64,000 nucleotides of DNA. Origin: Romanomermis culicivorax. Its lineage: Eukaryota; Nematoda; Enoplea; Mermithida; Mermithidae. The translations under genes and the position numbers were made by a program. The notes beneath the pieces are model-generated. The model was not told where the DNA came from. It ran no database searches and saw only the letters and a list, made by a program, of their open reading frames with translations. This document shows, in pieces, positions 9,901 to 63,842 of the stretch (the first letter of the stretch is position 1; every line of letters starts with the position of its first letter). The stretch is from the NCBI GenBank assembly GCA_963922205.1, contig CAWUHX010000119.1:186001-250000 (forward strand), given 5' to 3'.

Positions 9901-10191
9901 TTTGATAGGTTACTTATATTTTTTACTCGTTACAATGTGTCTGTGTGGTTATTTTGATGGTTTTATTACACTCCTTTACTCATTAGTGACTTATATTTCG
10001 GTAGACTCGCCCTAGTATTAGGTCTTTTCAACCATTTTTGCGCACAGTTCCATAAAAGTGACAAAAGAAATATTTGTCACAACACAGACTGCCTACCGTC
10101 ATTCATGTTTTCGTTTTCTTTTAATGTTTTTTTCATTCGGAAAACCCTCATGAAAATGACGGCAAAATCTTTTTCATATTGTTTCATGTCT

Positions 10192-23351: not shown

Positions 23352-24236
23352 TGTAACGACCAGATTTTGTGAAGCACTTTACTTTAACCAAACTGTCGCT
23401 ACAGCGAACAAAAGGGGCGCGGGCGGGTAATATGGGGCGATACGGCTAACAATAATCGACGGCTGCTTTGAGACGTCGATACGACAATGATGAACGCGGC
23501 GAGTACAACAAGGGCCTAACTGCTTCCGAATAAAAAGGGTGCTCGCTCGCAATACAAAAACGCTTGCAAATAAATGGGGCGCGGGGTCGAAAATTGAAAG
23601 TTACAACAATAACAAAATCATGCTTTGCTTCTCTTTTTATACGACGTTTTTGGCCACTCCCTGGGCGTCGCGGGAGGTCGTGCTTCTGTCCATCTTCTTC
23701 CGCCAATCGTCACTTCTGGCTTTGCTTTTTACACTTACTTAGTCACGCCTTTCTAATGCTATCCTGGTACTGTATGCTTTTCATGCTTCGCTTGCTTTCT
23801 ATGGTGGGCTTAGCCACACCTCTGTGCTTCTGTGCATGCTTCCTGTATCGGTTTCTCTGTATACACACGTTTTGGTGGGGCCATCGCATCTGTTGCACTT
23901 GAGACTACTGTCTGGCGGGGCTTTTACTTATTTTACTGTGTGCAGGTGTTGTTTACGATTTTTACAGGGGATTACGGTAGCCGTGGAATGTGTAGTTTAG
24001 TGTAGGTTCTAGGGGACCAGCTGCCGTTTGTGCAAATTAATTGGGGCATCTTAATTGGGCTATCGGGGTGTGAATGGATCAAAATAAAGTACTTCACGTA
24101 ATTTTATAGGAATGTTTGGGTGTGAATCCCAGACACCCTTGAGACGATAAAATACGAAAATGAATAATATTTAATAAATGTTTATCACATACAGTATGCT
24201 ATATATTTACAGTACTGCTTTAGCAGGTACGTTACA
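23352..24236 (-). repeat. 3' LTR of copy 1
   Basis: 885 bp, ending TACGTTACA on the plus strand. It is nearly identical to 31718-32600 and clearly related to the copy 2 LTRs, except for the part around 23400-23600, which differs more. The short inverted terminus is TGTAACG/CGTTACA. Confidence 0.9.
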
Positions 24237-24250
24237 TTTCCCTCCTTCCG
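24237..24250 (-). promoter_or_regulatory. Polypurine tract of copy 1
   Basis: On the minus strand GGAAGGAGGGAAA directly abuts the 3' LTR. The same tract lies at the same place in copy 2 (55698-55711). It would prime plus-strand DNA synthesis. Confidence 0.85.
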
Positions 24251-24267
24251 GAGTTGAACATCCTCAT

Positions 24268-27200: not shown

Positions 27201-28320
27201 TGCGACTGTTTTGGTTTTCAGAGACACAAGCTGCGAAATGGACTTTGGGATTCTGTTTGGGTTTCGGAGTAAATTCAAGCTGTTTAACTTGTAGGTACGA
27301 TTTGGGCAAGGGGACAGTAAATTCGGTTACTGTACCGGATGGTAATTCTAATTTTTCGTCTAGATAGGTTCCACCACGGGTCGAAAGGGGGCTATATTCT
27401 AGGCCATCACAGGGTAGTATGACATTGCCAAATTTGACCTGGGATTTCTGATTGTTGATAGTGTATTCCGAAAATCGACTGAGAAAGTTTTTGCCTAGAA
27501 GGATGTCTGCTGTGCAATCTTTTTGGACATGGACCATTATTGTTTCCTGGATTGTTTGGGCTGTCACTGTGACAAAAGTGGTCCCTACAAAGTGAATTGG
27601 GAGATTATTTGCTGCTTTTGCTTGGACTAGCGGGGGTTTCATGTTCAACTGTAAAATTTGAGTGATCCGTGAATCAATGAGTGAGTAGACTGCACCAGTG
27701 TCAATCATGTGTTTTGTGATTAATTTGCCGTTAAGTGTGATTGGAATATGAGGGGTATGTTTTTCAAGTACATTTTGGGGTGGCTTGTTTGATCCAGATT
27801 GATGAATTTGATTAATGAGTTCGATTGCAGGAGTTTGGGGGGTATCAATATCGACAAGGACATATTTCTGCTGCGTTTGTGCCCCAGGATGATTAGCTAA
27901 TTCTAAGAGAGCATGGTCGAGTGATGGGGAAATGGTCTCATGTAAATGTCTGTTGTGTGATGGTATTTCGTACGCATGTTCATTTGTGGCATGATGCTTT
28001 GGAGAAGGGAAATATTTTCGAAGAATGAGAAAAGAATAATAGATGCCCACAATAACTACAGTAATAACGGCTAGATTGATAATGATTTGCAGGGGTCCTT
28101 TGAGTAAATTGTTTAATCCCTCTGTGAGACTTTGAGTGGTACGGGTTATTACACATTCTATGCCTTGACCGGCGCCAGAGAGGGTATTTCCGATTGCTTG
28201 GCCAGTGCCTGAGATCATGTTGTAAACTGTATCAGAGTTAAGAGACATTTGGGCGGTGTAATTGACGAGTTTTTTAACAACATTTTCGAGTGTTTGAGTT
28301 TTGTAAATGTATTGTTTCAA
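24268..28320 (-). CDS. pol: Env-tail/protease/RT/RNase H/integrase polyprotein (copy 1)
   Basis: A 1350-codon frame, open upstream to a stop at 28477-28479. The TTG at 28320 is only a nominal start. It opens with the end of the env-like region: a transmembrane helix at about residues 78-101, followed by RKYF and a tail of about 100 residues. It continues without a stop into an aspartic protease (IDTGA, residues 206-210). Next come RT (YLDD, 633-636), RNase H (TDAS at 781-784, acidic partners near 822-824 and 849), an HHCC zinc-binding domain (from about 1010) and a DDE integrase (NGEVERCNQ). Compared with copy 2, the integrase lacks six residues just after HCDRGSD, and an N replaces D in the VFINYF stretch, so activity is doubtful. 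It ends 31 bases before the LTR. The family assignment is firm; the fusion to an env tail is the odd part. Confidence 0.92.
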   Translation of the reverse strand: MKQYIYKTQTLENVVKKLVNYTAQMSLNSDTVYNMISGTGQAIGNTLSGAGQGIECVITRTTQSLTEGLNNLLKGPLQIIINLAVITVVIVGIYYSFLILRKYFPSPKHHATNEHAYEIPSHNRHLHETISPSLDHALLELANHPGAQTQQKYVLVDIDTPQTPAIELINQIHQSGSNKPPQNVLEKHTPHIPITLNGKLITKHMIDTGAVYSLIDSRITQILQLNMKPPLVQAKAANNLPIHFVGTTFVTVTAQTIQETIMVHVQKDCTADILLGKNFLSRFSEYTINNQKSQVKFGNVILPCDGLEYSPLSTRGGTYLDEKLELPSGTVTEFTVPLPKSYLQVKQLEFTPKPKQNPKVHFAACVSENQNSRIRISVLNTQETAQTLYPGTCIGTVSCYIPKQNAPANLTPSTQNQPNRFDTFTWLKQNVNLTSSDLTETEKTQLLRALSKYPTLYAKSKMDLGRTTFVSHAIDTNGSQPVRRHLFCTSPKEKQIIQAEVKQLAAAGVISQSNSPCCTNTVLVPKKDGGHHLCIDFRGLNKVTKKDTYPLPRIDEILDTLRGMKYFTSLDQSNAYYSIPIAQADREKTAFNCSAGQYQFNYLPFRLTNAPATFQRLMDVILSGLQWNTCLVYLDDVLVFADSHAQMLERLDTILARFSQAGLKLNIQKCKFCQPQIQYLGHVISQQGISPDPHKVQAIYDIPTPKSSKEVKSFLGLPSYYRRFIPNCSQVSSPLTSLLKKNSEFSWGPEQQNAFTKLKELLIHAPILQHPDFTTPFILQTDASKLGIGAILSQLDSKGQDRPIAFGSRTLKPAERNYPITELETLAVVEFVKYFHPYLFQQHVIVHTDHTAVQAVLQKEIPSPHIARWGLALSGIQLDIRPKKGTANCNADAVSRFPSQTAKQSFDIEQLETRPEISTINSVLEAEATEQEEQQKNFAELQRTDPTVKSILAKIAQKHPLTLIKFAVHQNTLFRIVDKQAKLYIPKSQVQHLIASHHDSKFTGHFAAWKTLHLLRQKYFWPQMSRDTKCYCKTCHPCQTQKALQHKIHANLVPIQPTGPFHRVGVDCMGLLPLTEDGNRLIVVFINYFNKYVEAFPTPDITAATIAKLFVTKIVCRHGFPKIIHCDRGSDSRITSLCNTQKIHTTPYHPIANGEVERCNQTLATRIRMYINSNHTDWDTYLPYAVFSINIHKNDSASYPPFELLHGRQANLPSDAALNFFPMSYMVDLDDYALHVKSHFTEALSTVQKSLQKAQDHYTLQYNKHAQNIHYKAGDLILYKNHWCKQRLTPKFLPRQNGPYTVTNFMYPNVTLKHPHKNITFTVHVNETTPFYPRKAPIESAPTTPQPRKP

Positions 28321-29735
28321 AAAGAGTAAGTTTGTTGAAATTGTTGCGAGTTTATCATGAAAAATAGCAGGTGTATTAAGATGGAAAAGGGAGAAATTTT
28401 GGTTCCAGACGATTTCTAAAGGTAAATTTGTGACATGCGGGGATCCTGTTTCACTGACCCATGTATTATTCTGTTTTTAGAGGGCTACATGCATGTGATG
28501 GCAGTCAATGGTTTGTGAAAAAGAAGTTAAATCGTTGCCTCCTGGTTTGAAAACATGAGTTCGGTTCCTACCAGAATGGGCAAAAGTTTATAGCAGGTTT
28601 GGTTGATTTTATGGTTGTAGAAGACTTTAGATGCGTTTACTTGTTTACAGGGCCAGACGGTGAGGGCTACTCCTGTGAATTCTGCTATCATGTCAGTTCG
28701 CTGTAGGAATGCAGGCGCTCCAAGGGCTGCATCAAGGCACAAAATTTGCCATACGAGATCAAGGTGACGCTGTGCCTGTCTGCATAATTCACTCCATAGG
28801 TTTTTGAAATTTTGAATTTCGAATTCCTGGATTTTGTCTGCTAGATAATTTAGTTTCGCGTTAATGGGCTCAAAATCATCAAAATCGTAGAGTGTAGTAT
28901 GAGTTTCGTTGGTTTTTTGGGGTTAAAAATGTGTTACGATGTGGGGTGCTTTTGTCTAATTGTACAACAATGCCTTGTTCGGTGAGAATGCTGTCTTGGA
29001 TTTCTGGGCAGTTGGGGCTCGAAAAGAGTGTATTTTTAACGGAAAATGCACCTTGTAGCTCTTCTATTATCATGTGGGTTTGCGTGAGTTTTATGGGATG
29101 TGTATTTTTGTATTCGAAGGGGCATAAGTTTTCGAATGCTGTTTCATTCCAGATAATGGATCCGTCGGCTGTGACACAATGACCTGATGTAGGTTTGCAT
29201 GACCCCAGGTCACCTAATGTACCTATCATAGATTTTCCATTCCAAGATGCTATTTGTCCTATTTCTATGATGACGTTAGTGACTGACGTACAGTGGTCTG
29301 TACAACACCATGTGTATTCTACGCTTAGGGAGTTGTTTGTTGACCAAAATCCTGGTTGGGTTTCGTATATTTTTTGACCGTTGTGTTCTTTGTCTATAAG
29401 GATTGCCTTACAAACATGCGGGGTTAGATTTTGCATTTCCGTTTGGTCGAAGACAATACCTTTTGAGCCAAAAAATCCTGTATTAGTACAAATTTTCCAT
29501 TTGCGAACACTGCATTTGTATGTGTCTGTTATGTGAGGTTTAGTGGAGGGGATATAGATTTTTCCAAATGTCTGTACCGGTTTGTTACTGTGGAAAGGGG
29601 CATGCATGATACAAGTTTTGGTATGCTGAGCGAGTGACCCCTCAATGAAGTTCCACAGATCTGAAATTGGGCACTACACGATGTGGGGATCATTATACAA
29701 AGAAAAATACAAAACATTGGCCAATAGAATGTTTT
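28321..29735 (-). pseudogene. Env-like glycoprotein region of copy 1, frameshifted
   Basis: Homologous to the intact 627-codon frame at 59058-60941. Breaks seen by comparison are one base lost near 29588, one T gained in the T-run near 28915, one base lost near 28545, and an in-frame TAA at 28477-28479. The pieces keep the same cysteine pattern, including a CC pair and a DGSIIWNETAF stretch. The signal-peptide-like start (FCIFLCIMIPTSCSA) is in the same frame as the end of gag here. Confidence 0.85.
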
Positions 29736-31474
29736 AGTGGAGGCAGCGGGGCACTGTGTGTTTTCGTTCTGGCCAGTTTGGCGCGGCTGCTGTTGGTGTT
29801 TTGCGCTGTGTTGAGGGGGTGGCCGGATTGTTATCTGAACAGTCTGTAAAACTTTAGAAGTTGAGTCATGGGATGGGGTTTGGATTTGCTTACTTGTGTG
29901 GGTTGGTAGCAGTATTTGGCGGGGGCGGAATTGGTAGGGTTCGGGGATGAGGCCGTGTAAAAGTGACAACAAGTTGGGGCTGGGTTTGGAGGGTGTTTCG
30001 GGGGCAATGGGCGACTTGTTTTCCTGTTTCCAGGGGATTTTGTAGTCCGCCGGTATGGTGGGCGGCGATTTTTCGATTTTTGCCGCTTTGGGCATGGGGG
30101 ATGGTGACATGGCGCACCAATCGGGTATCTCCAGGTCCAGGACGTACTCCTCCTGACCACGGGGGTGGGTGTTGGGCATGATAGTTCCTAAAGTAGTCTG
30201 AGGGCCGTTAGTTATGGTGGGTAATGTTGAGTAAAATGTGGGGTCATCAATGTCCATGAGGGGTTGGGGTTGCCTGTACTCAATGCAATTTTGAATATTA
30301 CGACTCTGTTGATTCAGACAGTATCTACTTGTATGACCTCTCTGCTTGCATAGAAAACATTGAAAATTTGAGTAGGGTTTTGAAAGGCAGTTATCAGATC
30401 TATGTCCTGTTGGGAGCAGTGGATGCATCAGCTTTTACAATCACGTGTACTGTGATTATTACGAAAACAAATTTCACATGATTTTCGGGTGCCTACTGAT
30501 TTACAATTACGAGCTACATGTCCAAGTTGTCCACACTGGAAGCATGTGGGTTGCCTAGGGGTGGTATTGTTCCTGTAAGCGTTATTCCTGCTGAAAGTAT
30601 TGTTACTAAAATTGTTGTAGCTACTCTGTTGTGGGGGTTGAGGCTTTTGTTTGATCTGCAACTTTTGCAAATCTTTTACTTGTTGTTCTAACTGATGCAA
30701 AAGATCCTGTTGGTCTGTATTTTTGGTTAGGGAAAAGATGGGTTCGGGTTTTGGGGGTATGATGGGAAGGGCGTTAGATTGTCACTCATTTCTAAGAATT
30801 TGCTGTTTAATGTAAGCTGCTTCGTCTGACATTTCTTTTAGAGTTGCGAACCGTCTATACTTAATTGCTTCCCTGATTTCGTTTTGCATGCCTTCTACAA
30901 AGAGGGGTTTTATGATCATTTCTAGTGCGTCTGTGTTAAAGTTAGGGTAGGTGAGGGTTGCGAGGTGTTCTAGATCAAACAAGAATTCAGTGACTGTTTC
31001 TGATTGCTTTTGTTTTCTCTCACATAAAAATTGTTGATGTAGCTCATTATCCCGATTGTTTGGGAAAAATGCCTGTAATGCGACTTTATACTGCTCATAT
31101 GTGTGGGGAGGGTTTTCGGAATTGGCTAAACTTTTGAATTTCGCTAACGCGGCTCCTCCTAAATGAATCTCTAAACATGCCATTTTTAACTGTACATCTG
31201 TATCTTTCATGCCTTGGAGTGCCATGAATTGTTCTAAACGTTTGTTCCATTCACCATAGTGTTGGGTCATGCTGCCAGTGAATACTGTAGGTTTGGCGTA
31301 AAAATTATTTGCCATGTTATTGGGAATGTTTGCTGTTCTGAGATCATCTATTAGGGTAGGGTTTACTGTATTCTGATTCAATTGTGTGCGTAGGGTATGA
31401 AAATGTTCCGAAAATAAATCGTTTATCTGCTCTCTAACAATTTCTCCTAAATGATCTTGCGTTTGGTGGGTCAT
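29736..31474 (-). pseudogene. gag: Gag of copy 1, broken
   Basis: It starts at the ATG at 31474 (MTHQTQDHLG). The first open piece ends with a TGA near 30782. Further on, a TGA replaces a Gln codon of copy 2 at about 30426 and one base is lost near 30412. The capsid-like domain (FTGSMTQHYGEWNKRLEQF) and the four CCHC zinc knuckles are recognisable, the last two lying in the downstream piece. The proline-rich C-terminal part runs in frame into the env-like signal peptide. Its role would be particle assembly and RNA packaging. Confidence 0.88.
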
Positions 31475-31703
31475 TCTTGGTTTATGCTGGGTTTTCTGCT
31501 TAAATGCTTCAATTTTTGCTTCACACTGTATTCGTTTAAATGTATCGCTTAATGTTTCGTTGGAGGGGATTTCTAGTTTGCTTTCTAGGAATACTGTCTT
31601 ACTGTAGGAAATGATTACTACTGTATTATCTAATGCTTCTAAATGCCCGGATAAGAGTACACCTAATTGGGGGCAGGGAGTTCCAGTGGTTAACGGTATG
31701 GTA

Positions 31704-31712
31704 GGGTCACCA
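31704..31712 (-). promoter_or_regulatory. Primer-binding site of copy 1
   Basis: On the minus strand TGGTGACCC begins five bases after the 5' LTR. It is complementary to a tRNA 3' end GGGTCACCA. From memory tRNA-Trp ends this way, as used by avian retroviruses. The match stops after nine bases, so the tRNA identity is uncertain. Confidence 0.55.
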
Positions 31713-31717
31713 AAATA

Positions 31718-32600
31718 TGTAACGATCAGATTTTGTTAAGCACTTTACTTTAACCAAACTGTCGCTACGGCCAACAAAAGGGGCGCGGGCGTGTAATACG
31801 GGGCGATACGGCTAACAATAATTGACAGCTGCTTTGAGATGTCGATACGACAATGATGAACGTGGTGAGAACAACAATGGCTTAACTGCTTCTGAATAAA
31901 AAGGGTGCTCGCTCGCAATACAAAAATGCTTGCAAATAAACAGGGCACGGGGTCAAAAAATTGAAAGTTACAACAATAACAAAATCACGCTTTGCTTCTT
32001 TCTTTATACGACGTTTTTGGCCACTCCCTGGGCGTTGCGGGAGGTCGTGCTTCTGTCCATCTTCTTCCGCCAATCGTCGCTTCTGGCTTTGCTTTTTACG
32101 CTTACTTAGCCACGCCTTTGTAATGCTTTCCTGGTACTGTATGCTTTTCGTGCTTTGCTTGCTTTCTACGGTGGGCTTAGCCACACCTCTGTGCTTCTGT
32201 GCATGCTTCCTGTATCGGTTTCTCTGTATACACACGTTTTGGTGGGGCCGTCGCTACCGTTGCACTTGAGACTACTGTCTGGCGGGGCTTTTACTTATTT
32301 TACTGTTCAGGTGTTGTTTACGATTTTTACGGGGGATTACGGTAGCCGTGGAATGTGTAGTTTAGTGTAGGTTCTAGGGGATCAGCTGCCGTTTGTGCAA
32401 ATTAATTGGGGCATCTTAATTGGGCTACCGGGTTGTGAATGGATCAAAATAAAGTACTTCACGTAATTTTATAGGAATGTTTGGGTGTGAATCCCAAACA
32501 CCCTTGAGATGATAAAATACGAAAATGAATAATATTTAATAAATGTTTATCACATACAGTATGCTATATATTTACATACTGCTTTAACAGGTACGTTACA
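31718..32600 (-). repeat. 5' LTR of copy 1
   Basis: 883 bp, same termini as the 3' LTR. It lacks two bases in the TACTGTGTGCAGG region of its partner (ACTGTTCAGG near 32302) and has a few percent substitutions, so the insertion is not recent. Confidence 0.9.
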
Positions 32601-40369: not shown

Positions 40370-40834
40370 ACTGCTCAGCAATTCAATGCTACACAAATTT
40401 TTAAACTTTGAAACTGATCGTTAAAGTACCTCAACATAATTTCATTTGTTGCTACGAAAACGGGAATTGTTTGAAGATACAGGTGATTCTGTTAGTTTTT
40501 TGGTTTAGCTTGTTTGGTCAAAAAGGTGTTCGAGAAACTAGTCATTTTGGAAACATTTGCAATTTTTTTTGCTTTATTGTCATTACCTTTCTCTAACGCA
40601 TCAGTTGAACGAGTTTTTTCAACAATTAATATTGTAAAGTCAAAATTACGTGGTTACAAATCAGGATGTTATATTCTATTTTTTGCACACGCCATTGCCT
40701 TGCTTGATGAAAAGAATCGCGCAAAAGCATTACTATCACAGAAAATATCAGGGTTGGCAAAAACCAAACTTTTGAAAAACTTTTTTTGCTTTTTCTATGG
40801 TTTTTTAGTGTTTTTTTCTGGTTTGATTCTTTAA
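40370..40834 (+). pseudogene. hAT transposase C-terminal (dimerisation) region, decayed
   Basis: The plus-strand frame at 40514-40834 includes LPFSNASVERVFSTINIVKS (40583-40642), the diagnostic C-terminal block of hAT transposases. About 60 bases upstream, in another frame, EDTGDSV and FWFSLFGQKG resemble the preceding helical part, so at least one frameshift is present. The RNase H-like catalytic core and BED finger are not visible. Its position near the right tip fits the C-terminus of the 33292-42763 element's own gene. Confidence 0.82.
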
Positions 40835-48868: not shown

Positions 48869-51409
48869 ATGTCTGAAGATCATCTCGCAAGTCGTAGACT
48901 CCTTGAAGACTGTTTTTCGTCAAACTTGAATGGCAGCTGCGATGCAAATACGTGGAAAAAGTTCAAGTTCAAATTTTACGATCTATCTTATAACGGAGCG
49001 ATAGATTTTGGTCGAATTTTGTTTGTAAAATGTTCCGAATTAGGATCATCGAGTAATGAAGATTCCGCTGCAGTTTTCGATCAACTTTGTTTTATCGTCG
49101 ATATGTATTTCGACTCGATCGATTACGTGCGTTATTTCAACTTTTTGCCGTCTTTTGCTGCTTTTTTCGACGAAAATTTGTCGAAAATAATTGAAAAGCT
49201 GACCGAAAGCCCTCGGCTATCGATCATATTTTCAATTTTAAGCTTGAAATGCGTTAAATTTAAACAATTTTGCGATTTTTACGGTTCCAGGTGCGAAAAC
49301 TTACATTTAAAATCGATTATAAAATCTGGTTTGAAAGCTTTGGCGCCTTCGGTCGATAAACGATTACTAGAATTTTCGAAATTGATCCTATCGTCCGGTA
49401 CTAAAAATGGCGAAATTCTGGACGATTATAATTTAGAGCATATTTGCGAATTGGACGTTTGCCAAAATCAATTTTGCATGGATACTTACCGAATTCTGTG
49501 TTATGTAAAGAATTTGCCATTTATCATGAATTTGATTTTAGAAGACGAATCGAGAACAAGGAAACTGTTTGAATTTTGCCTCCGATCGATAGAAAGCGAT
49601 GCAAAACAAAAAGTTCTCGATTTGTTGACCAATCAAGCGAATTGGAAATCGACGGATGCTTTTGGACATAACATAATTGGCATATTTTTCGATTTTTGCG
49701 CGAATTTTGTCGATAAAGCCTTCGTTTTCGGGTCGGACGTTGGTTTATGGCTCAGGAATTTCTACGTAGCCAATAACGAGTTAAATTTTAAAACAGCGCA
49801 AAAAATTTTGCGGAAATTTTTTCGACACTTCGGCGAAAAAAACGAGATATGGCGCGGCAAAATACAAAGTTTAGATATGATCCGGTCGTTCGACGTTTTT
49901 CTTGATTTTTTAACTCGGGTACCCTACGAAATTTTGAATGAAACGTCGAAATTTTTACTATTTAGCCTGAATTCTATTTTGTTGAAAATTTTCGACATGT
50001 GTGAACTTGATGTTGATACGAAAAAAATGTTGATTCATAAAATCGTGAATATCTTGTTATTTTCGACCCATAAATCCAACTTTTTGACAGAATTCGACGT
50101 CGTTTTCGAAAAATTGTGTGAATTGAAATTCGACGCAGACGCTTTTATCGAAATTTTGTCAAAAATCGATTACACTTTTTACGAAAAATTATTAGATAGA
50201 TTGATTATCGATCAAGGGGAAGAAAATCACGCTTTTCTCATCAAAGTTTTGAAAATTGGCGAAAAATTCGATCAGTGTCGCGAAAAAATTGATACTCTGG
50301 TCAGCAACGTTTTGAAACGTAATAGCAAACGTTGGTCGATTGTTCTCCCACTTTTTTTGCCCATTTTTATCTCCAGAAACCCTCTTTCAAGCAAATTATT
50401 CGGCAAAATTTGCAAACATATAATAGAATCGATGGTCAACGAAAATTTTGCCCTGTATATTACTTTCATCGTTGAAAATTTTGATCGCGTTTCAGGGATA
50501 TATCCTAACATTAAACAAATTTTGCTTTCCAACCTACGTCAGTCTTCGTCGACAATTTTGCGACAAAATTCTCAAATTTTGGTGTCATGCGCCGCCAAAA
50601 TTTTTAATCACTTGACAATAGATGATGTAAAATTCGTTTTCGATGAATTAGAGCACGAAAAATTGCTGTTAATCCTCGATATTTTTGTGAATTGCGTTGA
50701 AAATTTACCGGGCGACGAGGAATTTTCACCAATTATCAAAAGTTTAAAACGTTCATTATCGAGCACATTAAAATCAGCCCCTTTCAACATAACTTTAAGC
50801 ACGAAAAATTGGCAAATGACGGAGGATACTTTACATATTTGCAATGATTTATGTAAAGAGAGGCGGAAAGTTCGCCTTTTGAACGTCAAAGCTGTGAACA
50901 ACATCTTTGGAATTTTATACGCAATAAATTATGATTCGATCCAAGTGGAAAATTTACATATTTTCACTCTAGTTTGCGACATATTACGACATCTGTTGAA
51001 GCCCAAATCAACCTACGTTGTGAATTCGGCTCATATTTTTTTGCACATTTGGATCAATATTCAGAAATCATCAATTAAATGGATTCATGACGAACCCGAT
51101 AACCGTCAAATTTCGAACTTAGTTTCCAAATTTTGTTCCGTCTTGATTTTTGGCGCTAAAAAATTCTCGACCGATTTTTGCAAAATCGCGCCTTATTTGG
51201 TAGCCGAATTTGTCCTAAATTTGAAAAATTACCCGTTGAAAAAACGTCAATTGGACTATTTTTTGCCTTATATTTTCGAATTTCTGGATATTTGTGATAA
51301 ATACGCGTCGGCTATGTTGGCTACGAATTTGGATGATGGGTCAAAAGAAGTTTTTCGTATGATATTCGACGAATACACGAAATTTCATAAGTTCAGAATG
51401 TTCACCTGA
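48869..51409 (+). CDS. URB2: URB2/Npa2-like ribosome biogenesis protein, intronless
   Basis: An uninterrupted 846-codon frame from ATG (MSEDHLASRRLLEDCF) to TGA, consistently coding-like, with no splice sites needed. The sequence is rich in alternating helical segments, as in HEAT/ARM-type scaffold proteins. The last ~50 residues (FEFLDICDKY, then EVFRMIFDEYTKFHKF) match the C-terminal signature of the Urb2/Npa2 family. In yeast and humans that protein acts in the nucleolus in early assembly of the large ribosomal subunit. Family members are usually about 1100-1500 residues, so this one is short; the N-terminal part is either truncated or very diverged. The start is the first ATG of the frame. 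It is flanked by repeats on both sides, yet the frame is clean, which argues for a functional gene. The C-terminal family match is from memory, with no search run. Confidence 0.8.
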   Translation: MSEDHLASRRLLEDCFSSNLNGSCDANTWKKFKFKFYDLSYNGAIDFGRILFVKCSELGSSSNEDSAAVFDQLCFIVDMYFDSIDYVRYFNFLPSFAAFFDENLSKIIEKLTESPRLSIIFSILSLKCVKFKQFCDFYGSRCENLHLKSIIKSGLKALAPSVDKRLLEFSKLILSSGTKNGEILDDYNLEHICELDVCQNQFCMDTYRILCYVKNLPFIMNLILEDESRTRKLFEFCLRSIESDAKQKVLDLLTNQANWKSTDAFGHNIIGIFFDFCANFVDKAFVFGSDVGLWLRNFYVANNELNFKTAQKILRKFFRHFGEKNEIWRGKIQSLDMIRSFDVFLDFLTRVPYEILNETSKFLLFSLNSILLKIFDMCELDVDTKKMLIHKIVNILLFSTHKSNFLTEFDVVFEKLCELKFDADAFIEILSKIDYTFYEKLLDRLIIDQGEENHAFLIKVLKIGEKFDQCREKIDTLVSNVLKRNSKRWSIVLPLFLPIFISRNPLSSKLFGKICKHIIESMVNENFALYITFIVENFDRVSGIYPNIKQILLSNLRQSSSTILRQNSQILVSCAAKIFNHLTIDDVKFVFDELEHEKLLLILDIFVNCVENLPGDEEFSPIIKSLKRSLSSTLKSAPFNITLSTKNWQMTEDTLHICNDLCKERRKVRLLNVKAVNNIFGILYAINYDSIQVENLHIFTLVCDILRHLLKPKSTYVVNSAHIFLHIWINIQKSSIKWIHDEPDNRQISNLVSKFCSVLIFGAKKFSTDFCKIAPYLVAEFVLNLKNYPLKKRQLDYFLPYIFEFLDICDKYASAMLATNLDDGSKEVFRMIFDEYTKFHKFRMFT

Positions 51410-52489: not shown

Positions 52490-53225
52490 GGGATTTTTGG
52501 GCTGCAAGGGTTTTCGACTATTGGGAATTCGATTGACACGGTCACTTTACACGAAAAATTATCCCGGGTGTAAACAAGCGTATTTCCGTGATTTTTCAGT
52601 GGAGGGAGTTTTCGACCGCGGGGAATTCAATAGACGTCCTCACTTTACACAAAAAAATTATCCACAGTGTAAACAAGCGAACTGCCGTAATTTTCTTGTG
52701 GAGGGGATTTTCGACCACGAGGAATTCAATGAATGTGATCACTTTACACAAAAACTTATCCCGGTTGTAAAAAAACGTATTTTCGTGATTTCCCGGTGGG
52801 TGGGGTTTTCGATCAGGGACAATTTGATGAATGCGATCATCTTACAAAAAAAACTATCGCGGGTGTAAACAATCGTATTTTCGTGATTTTTATGGAAGGG
52901 GTTTTCGACTGCGGGGAATTCAATGGATGTGTCACTTTACACAAAAAATGATTCCGGATTTAACCAAGCCTGTTTTCGTGAGTTTTTTGTGGGAGGGGCT
53001 TTCGACCACTGGGAATTTAATGAAAGTGATCACTTTACACACTAATTCATATTGAGTGTAAACAATTGTATTTCTGCGATTTTTGAGGGAAGATGTTTCT
53101 GACCATGGGAAATTCAATGAACGGAGTCAGTTTACACGAAAAAAATCATTTGTGTAAACAAAGGTATTTCTGCGATTTTTTGGGTTGAAGGATTCTAAAC
53201 CATGAGGAATTCAATAGATATGGTC
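52490..53225 (+). repeat. 97-bp tandem array in composite copy D, 8 units
   Basis: Unit markers (TTTTCGACC or variants) lie near 52510, 52609, 52708, 52806, 52902, 52999, 53094 and 53191, so spacing is 95-99 bases. Most units contain GGGGAATTCAATGGA, CACTTTACAC and GTGTAAACAA. The last two units are the most diverged. Confidence 0.9.
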
Positions 53226-54799: not shown

Positions 54800-55697
54800 T
54801 GTAACGACCAGATTTGTGTGAGGTACTTTACTTCTAACTAATCGGTCGATACGGCGGGGACAAAAGGGGCACGGGCGGTACAAATACGGGGCGATAATAC
54901 ACGAACGATCGACGGTCGCTTGAACGTCGACAATACAAAACGCGCTTCGATTTATAATACAAACGGGGGCCTCGGTTTAAGTTGCTTTCGGATAATCGGC
55001 CGCTCGCAAATGTAGAAAAAGGACGGGGCGAGTGCGGAAGTCAAAAACGTGAAACCACAAGAATAAGAATGAATCAAATCACGCTTTGCTTCTTCTTTTA
55101 TATGGCGATTTTGGCCACTCCCTGGGCGTCGCGGGAGGTCGAGCTTCTGTCCATCTTCTTCCGCCAATCGTCGTTTCCTGCTACGCTTTTTATGCTTACT
55201 TAGTTACGCCTCTCTAACGCTTTCCTGGTACTGTATGCTTTCTGTGCTTTGCTTGCTTCCTACGGTGGGCTTGGCCACACCTTTGTGCTTCTGTGCATGC
55301 TTCCTGTATCGGTTTCTCTGTATACACATGTTTTGTGGGGCCGCCGCTACCGTTACACTTGAGACTACTGTCTGGCAGGGCTTCTAAATATTTTACTGTG
55401 TGCAGGTGTTGTTTACGATTTTTACAGGGGATTACGGTAGCTGTGGAATGTGTAGTTTAGTGTAGGTTCTAGGGGAACAGCTGCCCTTTGTGCAAATTAA
55501 TTGGGGCATCTTAATTGGGCTACCGGGGTGTGAACGGATCAAAATAAAGTACTTCACATAATTTTGTAGGAATGTTTGGGTGTGAATCCCAGACACCCTT
55601 GAGACGATAAAATGTGAAAATAAAATAATATCTAATAAATGTCTATCACATACAGTATGCTACATATTTACAGTACTGCTTTAGCAGGTACATTACA
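54800..55697 (-). repeat. 3' LTR of copy 2
   Basis: 898 bp, TGTAACGACC to CATTACA on the plus strand. Related to the copy 1 LTRs, with the best match in 55080-55690. No full-length frame. Confidence 0.92.
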
Positions 55698-55711
55698 TTT
55701 CCCTCCTTCCG
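55698..55711 (-). promoter_or_regulatory. Polypurine tract of copy 2
   Basis: GGAAGGAGGGAAA on the minus strand, immediately next to the 3' LTR and identical to that of copy 1. Confidence 0.85.
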
Positions 55712-55728
55712 GAGTTGAACGTCCTCGT

Positions 55729-58700
55729 TCAAGGCTTTGGAGGTTGAGGAGGGGTGGGGGTAGATTCGATAGTTGCTTTCCGAGGGTAGAAAGGGGTTGT
55801 CTCATTTACATGCACCATAAATGTAATATTCTTATGGGAGTGTTGAAGTGTAACGTTGGGGTACATGAAATTTGTGACTGTATAGGGTCCGTTTTGGCGA
55901 GGGAGGAATTTGGGAGTCAGCCCTTGTTTACACGAATGATTTTTGTAGAGAATAAGATCACCTGCCTTGTAATGTATGTTCTGAGCAAGCTTGTTATACT
56001 GACGGGTATAGTGGTCTTGAGCTTTTTGCAAACTTTTCTGCACGGTTGAGAGGGCTTCTGTAAAATGTGATTTTACACGAAGGGCGTAATCGTCTAAATC
56101 AACCATGTAGGACGTGGGGAAAAAGTTTAAGGCTGCGTCTGACGGCAGATTAGCTTGCCTACCATGGAGTAATTCAAATGGGGGATACGAAGTGCTATCA
56201 TTTTTATGAATGTTGATCGAAAAATCGGCATAGGGCAGGTAAGTATCCCAATCAGTGTGATTTGAATTGATGTACATGCGGATATGGGTGGCTAGGGTTT
56301 GGTTGCAACGCTCAACTTCTCCATTGGCAATGGGATGGTATGGGGTAGTATGAATTTTCTGGGTATTGCATAGACTAGTGATCCGTGAGAAGAGATCGGA
56401 TACAAAATCGGAGCCACAATCACAATGGATGATTTTTGGGGACCCATGACGGCAAACAATTTTGGTTACGAATAATTTGGCGATAGTGGCTGCAGTGATA
56501 TCAGGGGTCGGGAATGCCTCTACATACTTTGTGAAATAATCGATGAAAATGACAATGAATCGGTTGCCGTCTTCAGTGAGGGGTAACGGTCCCATGCAAT
56601 CAACACCGACTCTATCAAATGGGCCAGTCGGCTGAATTGGTACCAAATTTGCATGTACTTTGTGCCTAAGAGCTTTCTCTGTCTGGCATGGGTGACAAGT
56701 TTTGCAGTAACATTCGATATCACGGCTCATTTGGGGCCAAAAATATTTTTGTCTGAGCAAGTGTAAAGTTTTTCGGGCTGCAAAATGACCTGTGAATTTG
56801 CTGTCATGATGAGAGGCAATGAGATGCTGGACTTGTGACTTGGGAATGTATAGTTTTGCTTGTTTGTCGACTATACGGAAGAGGATGTTTTGATGCACTG
56901 CCAATTTGATCAGGGTAAGGGGGTGTTTTTGGGCGATTTTTGCTAAAATACTTTTGACAGTTGGATCAGTGCGTTGGAGTTCGGCAAAATTTTTCTGTTG
57001 CTCTTCTTGTTCAGTTGCTTCAGCTTCCTAAACGGAATTGATAGTGAATATTTTGGGGCGGGTTTCTAATTGCTCAATATCAAAGGATTGTTTTGCTGTC
57101 TGTGAGGGGAATCGAGAAACTGCATCTGCGTTGCGGTTAGCAGTGCCTTTCTTAGGTCGAATGTCTAGCTGAATACCAGAGAGGGCTAATCCCCAACGGG
57201 CAATGCGAGGGGACGGGATTTCCTTCTGTAAGACTGTGCTGCAGTATTGGGGCATGAATGAGTAATTCTTTTAGCTTGGTGAATGCGTTTTGCTGTTCGG
57301 GGCCCCAGGAAAATTCCGAATTCTTTTTGAGTAGCGATGTGAGTGGGCTAGAAACTTGGGAGCAATTTGGGATGAATCTGCGATAATACGAGGGTAGGCC
57401 AAGGAATGACTTAACTTCTTTTGAGCTTTTGGGTGTGGGTATGTCATAGATGGCCTGTACCTTATGGGGATCTGGGGAAATGCCTTGCTGAGAAATGACG
57501 TGGCCTAAGTATTGGACTTGGGGCTGGCAGAATTTGCATTTTTGTATATTTAGTTTAAGGCCTGCTTGTGAGAATCGGGCAAGAATAGTGTCTAAACGTT
57601 CTAGCATTTGGGCATGGGAGTCTGCGAATACCAAAACATCGTCGAGATACACAAGGCATGTGTTCCATTGCAGACCCGAAAGAATAACATCCATTAACCT
57701 TTGGAATGTGGCTGGGGCATTGGTGAGTCTAAAAGGGAGGTAATTGAATTGATACTGGCCGGCTGAGCAATTAAAGGCCGTTTTTTCTCAGTCTGCTTGT
57801 GCTATGGGAATGGAATAATATGCATTGGATTGGTCGAGGGACGTAAAATATTTCATTCCACGTAGGGTGTGTAGAATTTCGTCTATGCGGGGCAGGGGGT
57901 ATGTATCTTTTTTGATTACTTTATTGAGGCCTCTAAAATCAATGCATAACCGATGGCCTCCGTCTTTTTTGGGAACTAAAACTGTGTTGGTACACCATGG
58001 GGAATTGCTCTGGCTTATGACACCTGCTGCTGGGAGTTGCTCAACTTCTGCTTGTATGATTTGCTTTTCTTTTGGGGACGTCGGATAAAGTTGTCTACGT
58101 ACGGGTTGGGAGCCATTGGTGTCAATGGTATGTGAAGCGAGGGTGGTTCTGCCTACGTCCATTTTGGATTTAGCTTATAATGTAGGGTACTTGGATAGGG
58201 CGCGTAGGAGTTGCATTTTTTCTGCTTCTGTCAGGTCACTGGAGGTTAAATTAACGTTTTCTTTTAACCATGTGAATGTATCAAAACGGTTGGGCTGGTT
58301 TTGCATGGAGGGGTTTACGTTAACGGAAGCATTTTTTTTGGGATGTAACAGGAGACTGTACCAATGCATGTTCCAGGGTAAAGAATTTGAGCTGTTTCTT
58401 GTGTGTTTAGGACCGATATGCGTATGCGATTGTTTTGGATTTCAGAGATACAAGCTGCGAAATGGACTTTGGGATTCTGCTTGGGTTTCGGAGTGAATTC
58501 GAGCTGTTTAACTTGTAGGTACGATTGGGCAAGGGGACAGTAAATTTGGTTACAGTACGGGGTGGTAATTCTAATTTTTCGTCTAAATAAGTTCCACCAC
58601 GGGTCGAAAGTGGGCTGTATTCTAGGCCGTCACAAGGTAGTATGACATTGCCAAATTTGACCTGTAATTTTTGATTGTTGATAGTGTATTCCGAAAATCG

Positions 58701-59057
58701 ACTGAGAAATTTTTTGCCTAGAAGGATGTCTGCTGTGCAATCTTTTTGGACATGGACCATGATTGTTTCCTGGATTGTTTGGGCTGTCACTGTGACAAAA
58801 GTGGTTCCTACAAAGTGAATCGGAAGATTATTTGCTGCTTTTGCTTGGACTAGCGGGGGTTTCATGTCTAACTGTAAAAGTTGAGCGATTCGGGAATCAA
58901 TGAGTAAGTAAACTGCACCAGTGTCAATCATGCCTTTTGTCATTAATTTGCCGTTAAGTGTGATTGGAATATGAGGGGTATGTTTCTCAGGTACATTTTG
59001 GGGTGGCTTATTTGATGCAGATTGGTGAATTTGATTAATGAGTTCGATTGCAGGAGT
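55729..59057 (-). pseudogene. pol: Protease/RT/RNase H/integrase region of copy 2, broken
   Basis: Protease (IDTGA, in the frame starting 58943) follows the env-like frame in phase. One in-frame TGA (59058-59060) and 38 codons separate the two recognised parts. Further damage is one base lost near 58523, a stop near 58174, TGA for Arg after QAD in RT (about 57788), a 254-bp deletion at 57237 removing the RNase H core, and a stop near 57030. The integrase part (55729-56904) is open for 391 codons, keeps HHCC and the six residues missing from copy 1, but reads CDCGSDF where copy 1 has CDRGSD. It cannot make an active polyprotein. Confidence 0.9.
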
Positions 59058-60941
59058 TCAGGGGGTATCAATATCGACAAGGACGTATTTCTGCTGCGTT
59101 TGTGCCCCATGACGATTAGCTAATTCTAAGAGAGCATGGCCGAATGATGGGGGTATGGTCTCATGTAAATGTCTGTTGTTTGATGGTATTTCGTATGCAT
59201 GTTCATGTGTGACCTGATGCTTTGGGGAGGGGAAATATTTTCGTAGAACCAGAAACAAATAAAAGACGCCTGCAATAACTACAGTAATAACGGCTAGATT
59301 GATAATGATTTGTAGGGGTCCTTTGAGTAAATTGTTTAATCCGTCCGTGAGACTTTGGGTGGTACTGGTTATTATATGTTCTTTGCCTTGACCCGCGCCA
59401 GAGAGTGTATTTCCGAGTGCTTGGCCAGTGCCTGAGATCATGTTGTAAACTGTATCTGAATTGAGAGACATTTGGGCGGTGTAATTGACGAGTTTTTTGA
59501 CAATGTTTTCGAGTGTGTGAGTTTTGTAAATGTATTGTTTCAAAAAGAGTAAGTTGGTTGAAATAGTTGCAAGTTGATCATGAAAAATGGCGGGTGTATT
59601 AAAATGGAAGAGGGAGAAATTTTGGTTCCAAACGATTTCTAAAGGTAAATTTGTGACATGCGGGGATCCAGTTTCACTGACCCATGTATTATTCTGTTTG
59701 TAAAGGGCTACATGCATGTGATGGCAGTCAACGGTTTGTGAGAAAGGGGTCAAATCGTTGCCTCCTGGATTTGAAAACATGAGTTCGGTTCCTACGAGAA
59801 TGGGTAAAAGTTTGTAGCATGTTTGGTTTATTTTGTGGTTGTAAAAGAATTTAGATGCGTTTACCTGCTTGCAAGGCCAGACTGTGAGGGCTTCTCCTGT
59901 GAATTCTGCTATGATATCGGTTCTCTGTAGGAATGCACGGGCTCCAAGGGTTGCATCAACGCGCAAAATTTGCCATATGAGATCAAGGTGACGCTGTGCC
60001 TGTCTGCATAATTCATTCCATATGTTTTTGAAATTTTGAATTTCGAATTCCTGGATTTTGTCTGCTGGATAATTGAGTTTCGCGTTAATGGGTTCAAAAT
60101 CATCAAAATCGTAGAGTGTAGTATGGGTTTCGTTGGTTTTTGGGGTTAAAAATGCGTTACGATGTGGTGTGCTTTTATCTAATTGTACAATAATGCCTTG
60201 TTCGGTGAGAATGCTGTCTTGGATTTCTGGGCAATTGGGGTTGGAAAATAGTGTGTTTTTAACCGAGAATGCACCTTGTAGTTCTTCTATTATCATGTGG
60301 GTTTGTGTGGGTTTGATGGGATGTGTGTTTTTGTATTCGAAGGAGCATAAGTTTTCAAATGCTGTTTCATTCCAGATAATGGATCCGTCAGTTGTTACAC
60401 AATGGCCTGATGTCGGTTTGCATGACCCTAGGTCACCTAATGTACCTGTCATAGATTTTCCATTCCAAGATGCTATTTGTCCTATTTCTATGATGACGTT
60501 AGTGACCGAGGTACAATGGTCTGTACAACACCATGTGTATTCTACGCTTAGGGAGTTATTTGTTGACCAAAATCCTGGTTGGGTTTCGTATAATTTTTGA
60601 CCGTTGTGTTCTTTGTCTATAACGATTGCCTTACAAACATGTGGGGTTAGATTTTGCATTTCAGTTTGGTCGAAGACAATACCTTTTGATCCAAAAAATC
60701 CTGTATTAGTACAAATTTTGCGTTTGCAAACACTGCATTTGTATGCGTCTGTAATGTGGGGCTTAGTGGAGGGGATATAGATTTTTCCAAATGTCTGTAG
60801 GGGTTTGTCTACTGTGGAAGGGGGCATGCATGATACAAGTTTTGGTATGCTGACTGAGTGACCGCTCAATGAAATTCCACACATTTGAAATTGGGCACTA
60901 CACGCTGTGGGGATTATTATACAAAGAAAAATACAAAACAT
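59058..60941 (-). CDS. Env-like membrane glycoprotein, copy 2 (627 codons)
   Basis: The frame begins with a signal-peptide-like start (MFCIFLCIIIPTACSA, residues 1-16). A cysteine-rich ectodomain follows, with a CC pair (EYTWCCTDHC), DGSIIWNETAF and many potential N-glycosylation sites. A membrane-proximal Gly-rich stretch (NMISGTGQALGNTLSGAGQG) precedes the transmembrane helix at about residues 546-567, then RKYF and a tail of 57 residues to a TGA. In copy 1 the codon at the TGA is Gln and the frame runs on into protease. Such a protein would sit in the ER and plasma membrane and could serve particle budding or cell-to-cell transfer, but fusion activity cannot be judged. I cannot assign it to a known viral glycoprotein class. 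It starts 25 bases before the gag stop, in a different frame. Confidence 0.82.
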   Translation of the reverse strand: MFCIFLCIIIPTACSAQFQMCGISLSGHSVSIPKLVSCMPPSTVDKPLQTFGKIYIPSTKPHITDAYKCSVCKRKICTNTGFFGSKGIVFDQTEMQNLTPHVCKAIVIDKEHNGQKLYETQPGFWSTNNSLSVEYTWCCTDHCTSVTNVIIEIGQIASWNGKSMTGTLGDLGSCKPTSGHCVTTDGSIIWNETAFENLCSFEYKNTHPIKPTQTHMIIEELQGAFSVKNTLFSNPNCPEIQDSILTEQGIIVQLDKSTPHRNAFLTPKTNETHTTLYDFDDFEPINAKLNYPADKIQEFEIQNFKNIWNELCRQAQRHLDLIWQILRVDATLGARAFLQRTDIIAEFTGEALTVWPCKQVNASKFFYNHKINQTCYKLLPILVGTELMFSNPGGNDLTPFSQTVDCHHMHVALYKQNNTWVSETGSPHVTNLPLEIVWNQNFSLFHFNTPAIFHDQLATISTNLLFLKQYIYKTHTLENIVKKLVNYTAQMSLNSDTVYNMISGTGQALGNTLSGAGQGKEHIITSTTQSLTDGLNNLLKGPLQIIINLAVITVVIAGVFYLFLVLRKYFPSPKHQVTHEHAYEIPSNNRHLHETIPPSFGHALLELANRHGAQTQQKYVLVDIDTP

Positions 60942-62701
60942 CGGCCAATAGAATGTTTTAGTGGAGGCGGCGGGGCACTGTATGTTTTCGTTGTGGCCGG
61001 TTTAGTGTTGGGGCTTTTGGTGTTGTCGTTTTGCGATTTTGAGCTGGGGGGTGGCCGGTTTGCAATCTGAACATTCTGTAAAACTTTAGAAGTTGAGTTA
61101 TGGGATGGGGTTTGGACTTGCTTACTTGTGGGGGTTGGTAGAAGTGTTTGGCGGGGGCGAAATTGGTAGGGTTCGGGGGTCAGGCCATGGAGAAGGGATA
61201 ACAAGTTGCGGCCTGTTTTCGATGGGGTTTCGGGGGCGGTGGGCGGCGTAGTGTCTTGCTTTCCGGGGATCTTGTAGCCTACGGGGATGGTGGGCGGCGA
61301 TTTTTCGATTTTTGCGGCTTCAGGCATGGGGGGTGGTGACATGGCGCACCAATCGGGTACGTCCAGGTCAAGGACGTATTCGTCACTACGGCGGTGGGTG
61401 TTGGGCATGATAGTTCCTAAAGTAGTCTGAGGGCCGTTAGTTATGGCGGGTAATTTTGAGTAAAATGCGGGGTCGTCAATGTCCATGAGAGGTTGGGGTT
61501 GCCTGTACTCAATGCAATTTTGAATATTACGATTTTGCTGATTTGGACAATATCTGCTTGTATGACCTCTCTGCTTGCATAGAAAACATTGAAAATTGGA
61601 GTAGGGTTTTGAAAGGCAGTTATCTGATCTATGTCCTGTTTGGGAGCAGTGGATGCATTGGCTTTTACAATCACGTGTACTGTGATTATTACGGAAACAG
61701 ATTTCACATGATTTTCGGGTACCTACTGATTTACAATTACGAGCTACGTGTCCGGTTTGTCCACACTGGAAGCATGTGGGCTGCCTAGGGGTGGTATTGT
61801 TCCTGTGAGCATTATTCCTGCTGAAAGTATTGTTACTGGAATTGTTGTAGCTACTCTGTTGTGGGGGTTGAGGTTTTTGTTTGATCTGCAACTGTAAATC
61901 TTTTACCTGTTGTTCTAACTGATGCAAAAGATCCTGTTGGTCTGTATTTCTGGTTAGGGAAAAGATGGGTTCGGGTTTTGGGGGTATGAAGGGAAGGGCG
62001 TTGGACTTTAACTCATTTCTAAGAATTTGCTGTTCAATGTAAGCTGCTTCGTCTGACATTTCTTTTAGAGTTGTGAACCTTCTATACTTAATTGCTTCCC
62101 TGATTTCGTTTTGCATGCCTTCTACAAAGAGGGGTTTTATGATCATTTCTCGTGCATCTGTGTTAAAGTTAGGGTAGGCAAGGGTTGCAAGATGTTCTAG
62201 ATCAAATAAGAAGTCCGTTACTGTTTCTGAACGCTTTTGTTTTCTTTCGCGTAAGAATTGTTGATGTAGCTCATTATCTCTGTTGTTTGGGAAAAATGCC
62301 TGTAATGCCACTTTATACTGCTCATATGTGTGGGGAGGGTTTTCGGAATTTGCTAAACTTTTGAATTTTGCTAACGCGGCTCCTCCTAAATGAATTTCTA
62401 AACATGCCAACTTTAACTGTACGTCTGTATCTTTCATGCCTTGGAGTGCCATGAATTGTTCTAATCTTTTGTTCCATTCACCAAAATGTTGGGTCACACC
62501 GCCCATGAATACTGTAGGTTTCGCGTAGAAATTATTTGCCATGTTATTACGAATGTTTGCTGTTCTTAGATCGTCTATTAGGGTAGGGTTTACTGTATTC
62601 TGATTCAATTGTGTGCGTAGGGTACGAAAATGTTCTGAAAATAAATCTTTTATCTGTTCTCTAACGATTTCTCCTAAATGATCTTGCGTTTGGTGGGTCA
62701 T
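60917..62701 (-). CDS. gag: Gag of copy 2, with four zinc knuckles
   Basis: Taken from the ATG at 62701 (MTHQTQDHLG), the start shared with copy 1, this is about 594 residues. The frame is actually open to an ATG at 62986 inside the 5' LTR. A capsid-type domain lies at about residues 60-220 (GEWNKRLEQFMALQGMKDTD, then HQQFLRERKQK). Four CCHC knuckles lie at about 309-384 (CFQCGQTGHVARNC, CEICFRNNHSTRDC, CIHCSQTGHRSDNC, CFLCKQRGHTSRYC), which is more than the usual one or two. A proline-rich tail of about 200 residues follows. It should form the particle and package the RNA. An 8-base length difference from copy 1 near 61000 changes the frame in which the tail meets the env-like start. Confidence 0.9.
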   Translation of the reverse strand: MTHQTQDHLGEIVREQIKDLFSEHFRTLRTQLNQNTVNPTLIDDLRTANIRNNMANNFYAKPTVFMGGVTQHFGEWNKRLEQFMALQGMKDTDVQLKLACLEIHLGGAALAKFKSLANSENPPHTYEQYKVALQAFFPNNRDNELHQQFLRERKQKRSETVTDFLFDLEHLATLAYPNFNTDAREMIIKPLFVEGMQNEIREAIKYRRFTTLKEMSDEAAYIEQQILRNELKSNALPFIPPKPEPIFSLTRNTDQQDLLHQLEQQVKDLQLQIKQKPQPPQQSSYNNSSNNTFSRNNAHRNNTTPRQPTCFQCGQTGHVARNCKSVGTRKSCEICFRNNHSTRDCKSQCIHCSQTGHRSDNCLSKPYSNFQCFLCKQRGHTSRYCPNQQNRNIQNCIEYRQPQPLMDIDDPAFYSKLPAITNGPQTTLGTIMPNTHRRSDEYVLDLDVPDWCAMSPPPMPEAAKIEKSPPTIPVGYKIPGKQDTTPPTAPETPSKTGRNLLSLLHGLTPEPYQFRPRQTLLPTPTSKQVQTPSHNSTSKVLQNVQIANRPPPSSKSQNDNTKSPNTKPATTKTYSAPPPPLKHSIGRCFVFFFV

Positions 62702-62931
62702 CCTTGGTTTGCATTGGGATTTCTGCTTAAATGCTTCAATTTTTGCTTCATGCTGTATTCGTTTAAATGTATCACTTAATGTCTCGTTGGAGGGGATTTC
62801 CAGTTTGCTTTCTACGAATACTGTCTTACTGTGGGAAATGATTACTACTGTATTATCTAATGCTTCTAAATGCCCGGATAAGAGTACACCTAATTGGGGG
62901 CAGGGAGTTCCAGTGGTTAACGTAACGGTAC

Positions 62932-62939
62932 GGTCACCA
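62932..62939 (-). promoter_or_regulatory. Primer-binding site of copy 2
   Basis: TGGTGACC on the minus strand, five bases after the 5' LTR, in the same position as in copy 1. The match to a tRNA-Trp-like end is only eight bases. Confidence 0.5.
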
Positions 62940-62944
62940 AAATA

Positions 62945-63842
62945 TGTAACGACCAGATTTGTGTGAGGTACTTTACTTCTAACCAATCAGTCGATACGGC
63001 CGGGACAAAAGGGGCACGGGTGGTACAAATACGGGGCGATAATACACGAACGATCGACGGTCGCTTGAACGTCGACAATACAAAAGGCGCTTCGATTTAT
63101 AATACGAACGGGGGCCTCGGTTTAAGTTGCTTTCGGATAATCAGCCGCTTGCAAATGTAGAAAAAGGATGGGGCGAGCGCGGAAGTCAAAAACGTAAAAC
63201 CACAAGAATAAGAATGAATCAAATCACGCTTTGCTTCTTCTTTTCTATGGCGATTTTGGCCACTCCCTGGGTGTCGCGGGAGGTTGAGCTTCTGTCCATC
63301 TTCTTCCGCCAATCGTTGTTTCCTGCTACGCTTTTTATGCTTACTTAGTTACGCCTCTCTAACGCTTTCCTGGTACTGTATGCTTTCTGTGCTTTGCTTG
63401 CTTCCTACGGTGGGCTTGGCCACACCTTTGTGCTTCTGTGCATGCTTCCTGTATCGGTTTCTCTGTATACACATGTTTTTTGGGGCCGCCGCTACCGTTA
63501 CACTTGAGACTACTGTCTGGCGGGGCTTCTAAATATTTTACTGTGTGCAGGTGTTGTTTACGATTTTTACGGGGGATTACGGTAGCTGTGGAATGTGTAG
63601 TTTAGTGTAGGTTCTAGGGGAACAGCTGCCGTTTGTGCAAATTAATTGGGGCATCTTAATTGGGCTACCGGTGTGTGAACGGATCAAAATAAAGTACTTC
63701 ACGTAATTTTGTAGGAATGTTTGGGTGTGAATCCCAGACACCCTTGAGATGATAAAATGTGAAAATAAAATAATATCTAATAAATGTCTATCACATACAG
63801 TATGCTACATATTTACAGTACTGCTTTAGCAGGTAACTTACA
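62945..63842 (-). repeat. 5' LTR of copy 2
   Basis: 898 bp, TGTAACGACC to AACTTACA on the plus strand, so the outer tip has two changes from GTTACA. About 24 differences from the 3' LTR by eye, of which about 14 are CG versus TG or CA. Confidence 0.92.

Follow-up and report, generated by a model that had tools for sequence, protein, structure and literature searches.

An envelope-like gene between gag and protease in Ty3/Gypsy-type elements of the nematode Romanomermis culicivorax

Our analysis of a 64,000-nucleotide stretch of the Romanomermis culicivorax genome (assembly GCA_963922205.1, contig CAWUHX010000119.1, positions 186,001 to 250,000 of the forward strand; hereafter the window) indicates that it carries two Ty3/Gypsy-type long terminal repeat (LTR) elements, both on the minus strand, copy 1 at 23352-32600 and copy 2 at 54800-63842, in which an envelope-like gene (env) lies between gag and pol. 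This arrangement is probably best explained by a metavirus-like lineage that gained a class III glycoprotein of mononegavirus or chuvirus type between the nucleocapsid part of gag and the protease, its ancestral Gag-Env-Pol being a single frame that encoded a polyprotein threaded through the endoplasmic reticulum (ER).

The envelope gene in the two window copies

In both copies the zinc knuckles of gag and the aspartic protease (PR) are separated by a signal peptide, a cysteine-rich ectodomain, a transmembrane helix and a tail. An earlier sequence-only reading of the window had claimed this order and had held that nothing follows integrase (IN); the open reading frames (ORFs), the order of the Pfam domains and a gap of 31 nt between the integrase stop and the 3' LTR in both copies, with the polypurine tract inside the gap in copy 2, bear out both points. 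Errantiviruses (gypsy, ZAM) and retroviruses carry env after pol and express it from a spliced RNA; the window elements share with them LTRs, gag, pol and env, but their env precedes PR instead of lying downstream of integrase.

The junction between env and protease is most easily followed in copy 1, where one open frame of 1402 codons (24271-28476; all element features are on the minus strand) contains the C-terminal part of env, the transmembrane helix, the tail, PR, reverse transcriptase (RT), RNase H (RH) and integrase, with the Pfam domains in that order. The sequence-only reading had this frame running unbroken from the transmembrane helix through integrase, and it is in fact open already from the env ectodomain. 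The breaks of copy 1 lie in gag and inside env, while its env-protease junction is in frame. In copy 2 the env ORF starts at an ATG and occupies 59061-60941, or 59058-60941 (627 amino acids) including the stop TGA at 59058-59060; the linker and aspartic protease (58410-59057; PF13975, 2.1e-8) are in phase with env past this TGA, and the next methionine is at 58943, 38 codons on. It was correctly noted before that the TGA is in phase and 38 codons from that methionine, but it is not the only break, since pol is broken as well: RT is left in two pieces (57155-58174, from ORFs and Pfam), followed by integrase, the last gene of the element (55732-57027; PF17921, 1.1e-20; PF00665, 3.6e-8). Because copy 1 has a sense codon at the position of the TGA, a conserved stop between env and protease is ruled out; neither a conserved stop nor a conserved frameshift, which the sequence-only reading had named as evidence against a fusion, was found there. 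The window copies are decayed members of their lineage, and the simplest reading of the frames of both copies and of the relatives described below is an ancestral open Gag-Env-Pol frame followed by copy-specific decay.

Upstream of env, the gag ORF of copy 2 runs from an ATG at 62701 to a stop at 60917 (60917-62701) and matches PF00098 (8.7e-8) and PF03732 (5.5e-5), the latter just under the family cut-off; matches to PNMA and Ty3 capsids are weak. Motif positions place four zinc knuckles at 61547-61774. In copy 1 gag is split by ORF into a first part (30785-31474), a part with zinc knuckles 1 and 2 (30431-30781) and a frame (29532-30434) in which the fourth zinc knuckle is followed by the env signal peptide, so that here the gag-env junction is itself in frame.

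The env product is predicted, from its profile match and modelled fold, to be a class III fusion glycoprotein of mononegavirus type, resembling herpesvirus glycoprotein B (gB) and rhabdovirus G. In copy 2 a hydropathy scan finds a hydrophobic signal sequence (60885-60941) and, near the end of env, a transmembrane helix at residues 545-563 (59253-59309) with a tail after it; between them residues 269-442 (59616-60137) match the Pfam profile Monjiviricetes_fusion (PF24664, 5e-18). In VIA-align, gB is the sole solved structure among the 50 matches listed, which excludes no other. The ectodomain has 17 cysteines in the window env and 16 in each of four long relatives, and in all four of these the density of N-glycosylation sequons per residue is higher in the ectodomain than in gag or pol.

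Comparison of copy 1 with copy 2, whose aligned blocks are about 92% identical, gives ratios of nonsynonymous to synonymous substitution rates (dN/dS) of 0.16 for gag, 0.18 for env, 0.27 for linker plus protease and 0.15 for integrase; the short env tail gives 0.40, on 15 changes. Ratios this low require selection while the lineage replicated, and env was under it no less than gag and integrase. For RT the value first computed was 0.61, probably a spurious figure caused by a terminal deletion in this piece, the trimmed piece being 99.1% identical. The identity of this RT stretch (57236-57787, against about 26011-26562 in copy 1), to be set against the roughly 92% of the aligned blocks overall, probably marks a patch of recombination or gene conversion.

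The sequence-only reading placed the element at 55729..62986. An element is indeed there, but its true limits are wider on both sides, for copy 2 is bounded at 54800-63842 by a 5' LTR (62945-63842) and a 3' LTR (54800-55697) that are 97.3% identical. The 3' LTR is immediately preceded by a purine tract, TGG stands five bases past the 5' LTR, and a 4-bp duplication, GGTG, flanks the element on both sides; such a target site duplication (TSD) was seen for copy 2 only. Near 3690 lies an un-inserted relative of the copy 2 target, with the site uninterrupted. The LTRs of copy 1 (23352-24236 and 31718-32600) are 94.7% identical, and the LTRs of both copies open with TG and close with CA. The TG...CA termini, the short TSD and the polypurine tract are those of Ty3/Gypsy elements (Metaviridae), as is the pol order PR-RT-RH-IN; the integrase is of H2C2 type by Pfam, and the best match of the window RT among solved structures (PDB) is Ty3 (7.6e-89). 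Rfam and tRNA scans gave no matches.

Relatives and their phylogeny

How widely is this order shared? Protein searches were made with three queries, namely residues 1-240 of the copy 1 frame (the last third of env), copy 2 env and the env region of P0001, and domain order in the proteins found was read from domain scans and purpose-built env and RT profiles. The copy 1 query matched one protein among long ones, P0001 (1500 amino acids), which in one frame reads Gag, zinc knuckle (CCHC), signal, Env, transmembrane helix, PR and the start of RT. The copy 2 query gave two env-only matches among proteins of similar size (P0002 and P0003), and the P0001 query gave 12 proteins: P0001 itself, ten close relatives and P0014. 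Nine of the thirteen close env relatives (P0001-P0013) also encode PR or RT within the one ORF, and each of the nine has env ahead of it. The env-pol fusion that the sequence-only reading had proposed is thus found in every informative close relative, and these protein searches turned up none among the nine with env after integrase, the arrangement which that reading had named as evidence against a fusion.

Four of these relatives, P0004 (2327 amino acids), P0006 (2461), P0009 (2597) and P0012 (2604), are unbroken from Gag and zinc knuckle through Env, transmembrane helix, PR, RT and RH to IN; what identifies their gag is the zinc knuckle together with its resemblance to that of the window (E 2e-9 to 5e-44), not strong Pfam gag matches. 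P0011 (1925 amino acids) and P0007 (1079, ending in RT) open with the signal peptide and continue into PR and RT, P0008 is an env-PR piece, P0010 an env-PR-RT piece, and P0005 and P0013 are gag-env proteins. The env of the informative close relatives is 31-41% identical to that of the window, and P0012 is closest (RT plus RNase H 57%, env 41%, gag 32%). Together these proteins suggest that an entire lineage is organised as Gag-Env-Pol and that the order did not arise by accident.

A more distant protein, P0014, assigned by its source to the hookworm Ancylostoma duodenale, contains in order a zinc knuckle, a signal, a weak env match, a transmembrane helix, a PR-like motif and RT. Its env match stands at 1.8e-20 with our own profile, at 9.4e-5 in the database search and at 2.4e-4 in Pfam, below the cut-off. 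Between its zinc knuckle and its protease stands a divergent glycoprotein, yet the source annotation is that of an integrase core domain protein only; searches for env limited to the region downstream of integrase miss elements of this kind.

Scans of viral contigs and genome contigs with the env alignment, and a phage tblastn search, gave no env relative. Scans with RT gave one viral contig and 18 genome contigs, and at these 19 loci no ORF of at least 100 amino acids matched the env profile at E 1e-3; the control is weak, since several of the contigs hold too little sequence ahead of the protease, with L002, L004 and L006 beginning at or near RT. The viral contig, L001 (IMG/VR, 9984 bp, filed as viral), is Gypsy-like, with an open frame of 2053 amino acids of which about 850 precede the protease, and in these no env or transmembrane segment was found.

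The RT tree was built from seven proteins and all RT loci, less L015, L018 and L019 (fewer than 180 aligned residues) and the partial RTs of P0001, P0007 and P0010. With RT plus RNase H, the window and P0012 are paired with full support, with P0004, P0006, P0009 and P0011 nearby and P0014 on a long branch elsewhere. The env tree joins the window, P0012 and P0002 (97/98), while seven of its 11 inner branches are drawn open. A single clade of the six env-bearing RTs is not rejected by the approximately unbiased test (p 0.10), and a single capture of env is plausible on these trees. Against it stand L001, in which no env was seen, and L002, where the region is not covered, both nesting weakly among the env-bearing six (84/89), a position that also counts against our explanation. 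L001 may have lost its env, or its place in the tree may be an artefact of poorly supported branches.

Expression model and rival explanations

How could one chain deliver each of its parts to the proper side of a membrane? In the explanation that we favour, gene order, in-frame fusion in relatives, fold class and selection are observed, and from there we infer the steps of translation, ER passage and cleavage. Translation would begin in Gag, with some members using a methionine before the signal sequence instead. The hydrophobic segment past the zinc knuckles would serve as an internal signal, opening the channel into the ER; the ectodomain would pass into the lumen until the transmembrane helix stops transfer, and PR-RT-RH-IN would be synthesised in the cytosol. 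Signal peptidase would then cut between Gag and Env, so that Gag kept a C-terminus able to anchor it in the membrane, the element protease would release Pol from the Env tail at assembly, and Env would serve as the entry fusogen. The predicted placement of signal and transmembrane helix gives the right topology, with Gag in the cytosol, the ectodomain in the lumen and PR-RT-IN in the cytosol, and the hydropathy scan finds a signal-like segment and a transmembrane segment at the end of the ectodomain in seven of seven close gag-env proteins. The same working logic is known from the polyproteins of flaviviruses and hepatitis C virus (HCV), unrelated positive-strand RNA viruses in which a cytosolic capsid, an internal signal, a lumenal glycoprotein, a transmembrane segment and cytosolic enzymes follow one another in one chain.

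A number of observations weigh against this explanation. Both window copies are defective, and copy 2 has gag and env in separate frames, the env ATG lying about 20 nt before the gag stop. The AlphaFold2 model of env is confident for part of the ectodomain only (mean predicted local distance difference test score, pLDDT, 55; predicted template modelling score, pTM, 0.36), whole-chain TM-scores of the model are low (0.3), and in P0012 sequons are only slightly denser in the ectodomain than in pol. Extra hydrophobic segments also occur: a second one ahead of the ectodomain in P0012, one at the N-terminus of P0006, and others over the threshold inside pol of P0001, P0004, P0006, P0009 and P0014; these last overlap PR or RT and are probably buried core. 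P0007 and P0011 begin at a methionine before the signal peptide and P0013 ends about 88 amino acids past the transmembrane helix, so one continuous protein is not made by all members. Finally, searches of single proteins, which are of limited length, show an env in a separate ORF as an env-only match, and four of the thirteen relatives leave pol unplaced (P0002 and P0003 being env-only, with the sequence after gag-env in P0005 and P0013 not covered), while each protein from the P0001 query is one sequence on one contig.

The main rival is that Gag is made separately, unspliced RNA giving Gag, and a spliced or internally initiated RNA giving Env-PR-RT-IN from the signal-peptide methionine. We regard this as doubtful. 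It would account for the frame difference and overlapping env ATG of copy 2, and a methionine stands at or a few residues from the start of the signal core in the window element, P0006, P0007, P0011 and P0012. However, five of eight single-frame gag-env proteins lack a methionine both at the start of the signal core and in the 35 residues ahead of it (six of eight lack one by the script's criterion, the methionines of P0014 lying inside the signal core), and in those proteins an env-only start would need a splice. Nor does a separate start require the four long relatives to be open from gag to IN, and in copy 1 the last zinc knuckle and the start of env share a frame. A different possibility concerns the origin of env: several Gypsy lineages could have captured class III glycoproteins independently at the same place, a recurrent insertion spot. 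The hookworm protein, which has the order on a long RT branch elsewhere, and the env-less L001 among env-bearing RTs speak for this, whereas the env and RT trees concur on the pairing of window and P0012 without supported conflict (most inner env branches being open), and the clade of six survives its test; we consider recurrent capture unlikely. By comparison, it is highly improbable that env and protease were fused by an accident confined to the two copies. The copies are both broken and, at 92% identity, share most of their history, but the order and frame recur in all nine informative relatives, at env identities of 31-41%, and dN/dS is low in env and in linker plus protease, so that the relatives contradict an accident.

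More generally, we lean slightly towards regarding these elements as a new lineage, probably at family level, of enveloped animal reverse-transcribing elements, present in the window host, in several further sources and in divergent form in a hookworm. The whole proteome would be a single Gag-Env-Pol chain passing through the ER membrane twice, with Gag, Env and Pol in fixed proportion, Gag targeted to the membrane via the Env signal, and neither a frameshift nor a spliced env RNA. To our knowledge, env stands last in known retroviruses and env-bearing LTR elements and usually has its own spliced RNA. That arrangement lets a virus tune Env apart from Gag and Pol, a rule which a fusogen inside the polyprotein breaks. 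This raises the questions of what separates capsid, envelope and polymerase, how a working particle could still arise from 1:1:1 output, and how retrotransposons come to capture glycoproteins repeatedly.

Comparison with known elements and other features of the window

The closest counterparts in the literature, cited here from the parts of each source consulted, differ in the place of env or in the type of element. Dingle, a Ty3/Gypsy element of the annelid Dimorphilus gyrociliatus, has an env resembling herpesvirus gB (PMC7854359); like the window element it thus combines a Ty3/Gypsy pol with a gB-like class III env, but its modelled envelope lies downstream from integrase (PMC7854359), whereas the window env lies before the protease and in frame, and by this description the two are set apart. 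Anakin comprises mosquito BEL/Pao elements with a chuvirus glycoprotein (PMC7642597), likewise a case of a chuvirus-type glycoprotein captured by an LTR element, but the window RT matches Ty3 best (in a comparison that held no BEL/Pao sequence), and in the text consulted the Anakin glycoprotein is not placed between gag and pol (PMC7642597). The follow-up study, as far as consulted, reports no clear capture by Gypsy elements (PMC10084718). Atlas virus, a hookworm member of the Belpaoviridae, has one polyprotein that includes Env (PMC9094657), as in our proposal, but it is a BEL/Pao element with the order Gag-Pol-Env and a phlebovirus-like class II Env (PMC9094657), where the window element has a class III env before PR.

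The rotifer env-like ORFs treated in PMC5408684 lie, by its account, downstream of pol, and env between gag and pol is not described in the consulted part of PMC8220671. Cer1 of C. elegans was considered as a hidden relative and rejected, its protease starting from residue 735 and an extra ORF following pol (PMC10309623), as was Troyka, which has no env and 3-bp TSDs (PMC12440569). The sequence-only reading knew of no well-described lineage with this order, and none was found in the open-access full text searched, subscription papers, bioRxiv and Repbase lying mostly beyond that search; the position of env is new relative to this literature, which does not prove priority.

Elsewhere in the window, tandem arrays with a unit of about 98 bp lie at 2359-2697, 14252-14456, 15681-16341 and 52508-53184, inside larger dispersed repeats. 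A long single-exon ORF at 48869-51409 on the plus strand matches Urb2/Npa2, of ribosome biogenesis (9.5e-13), and short open stretches at 9454-9909 (minus strand) and 40496-40834 (plus strand) are, by eye, putative remnants of MULE and hAT transposases.

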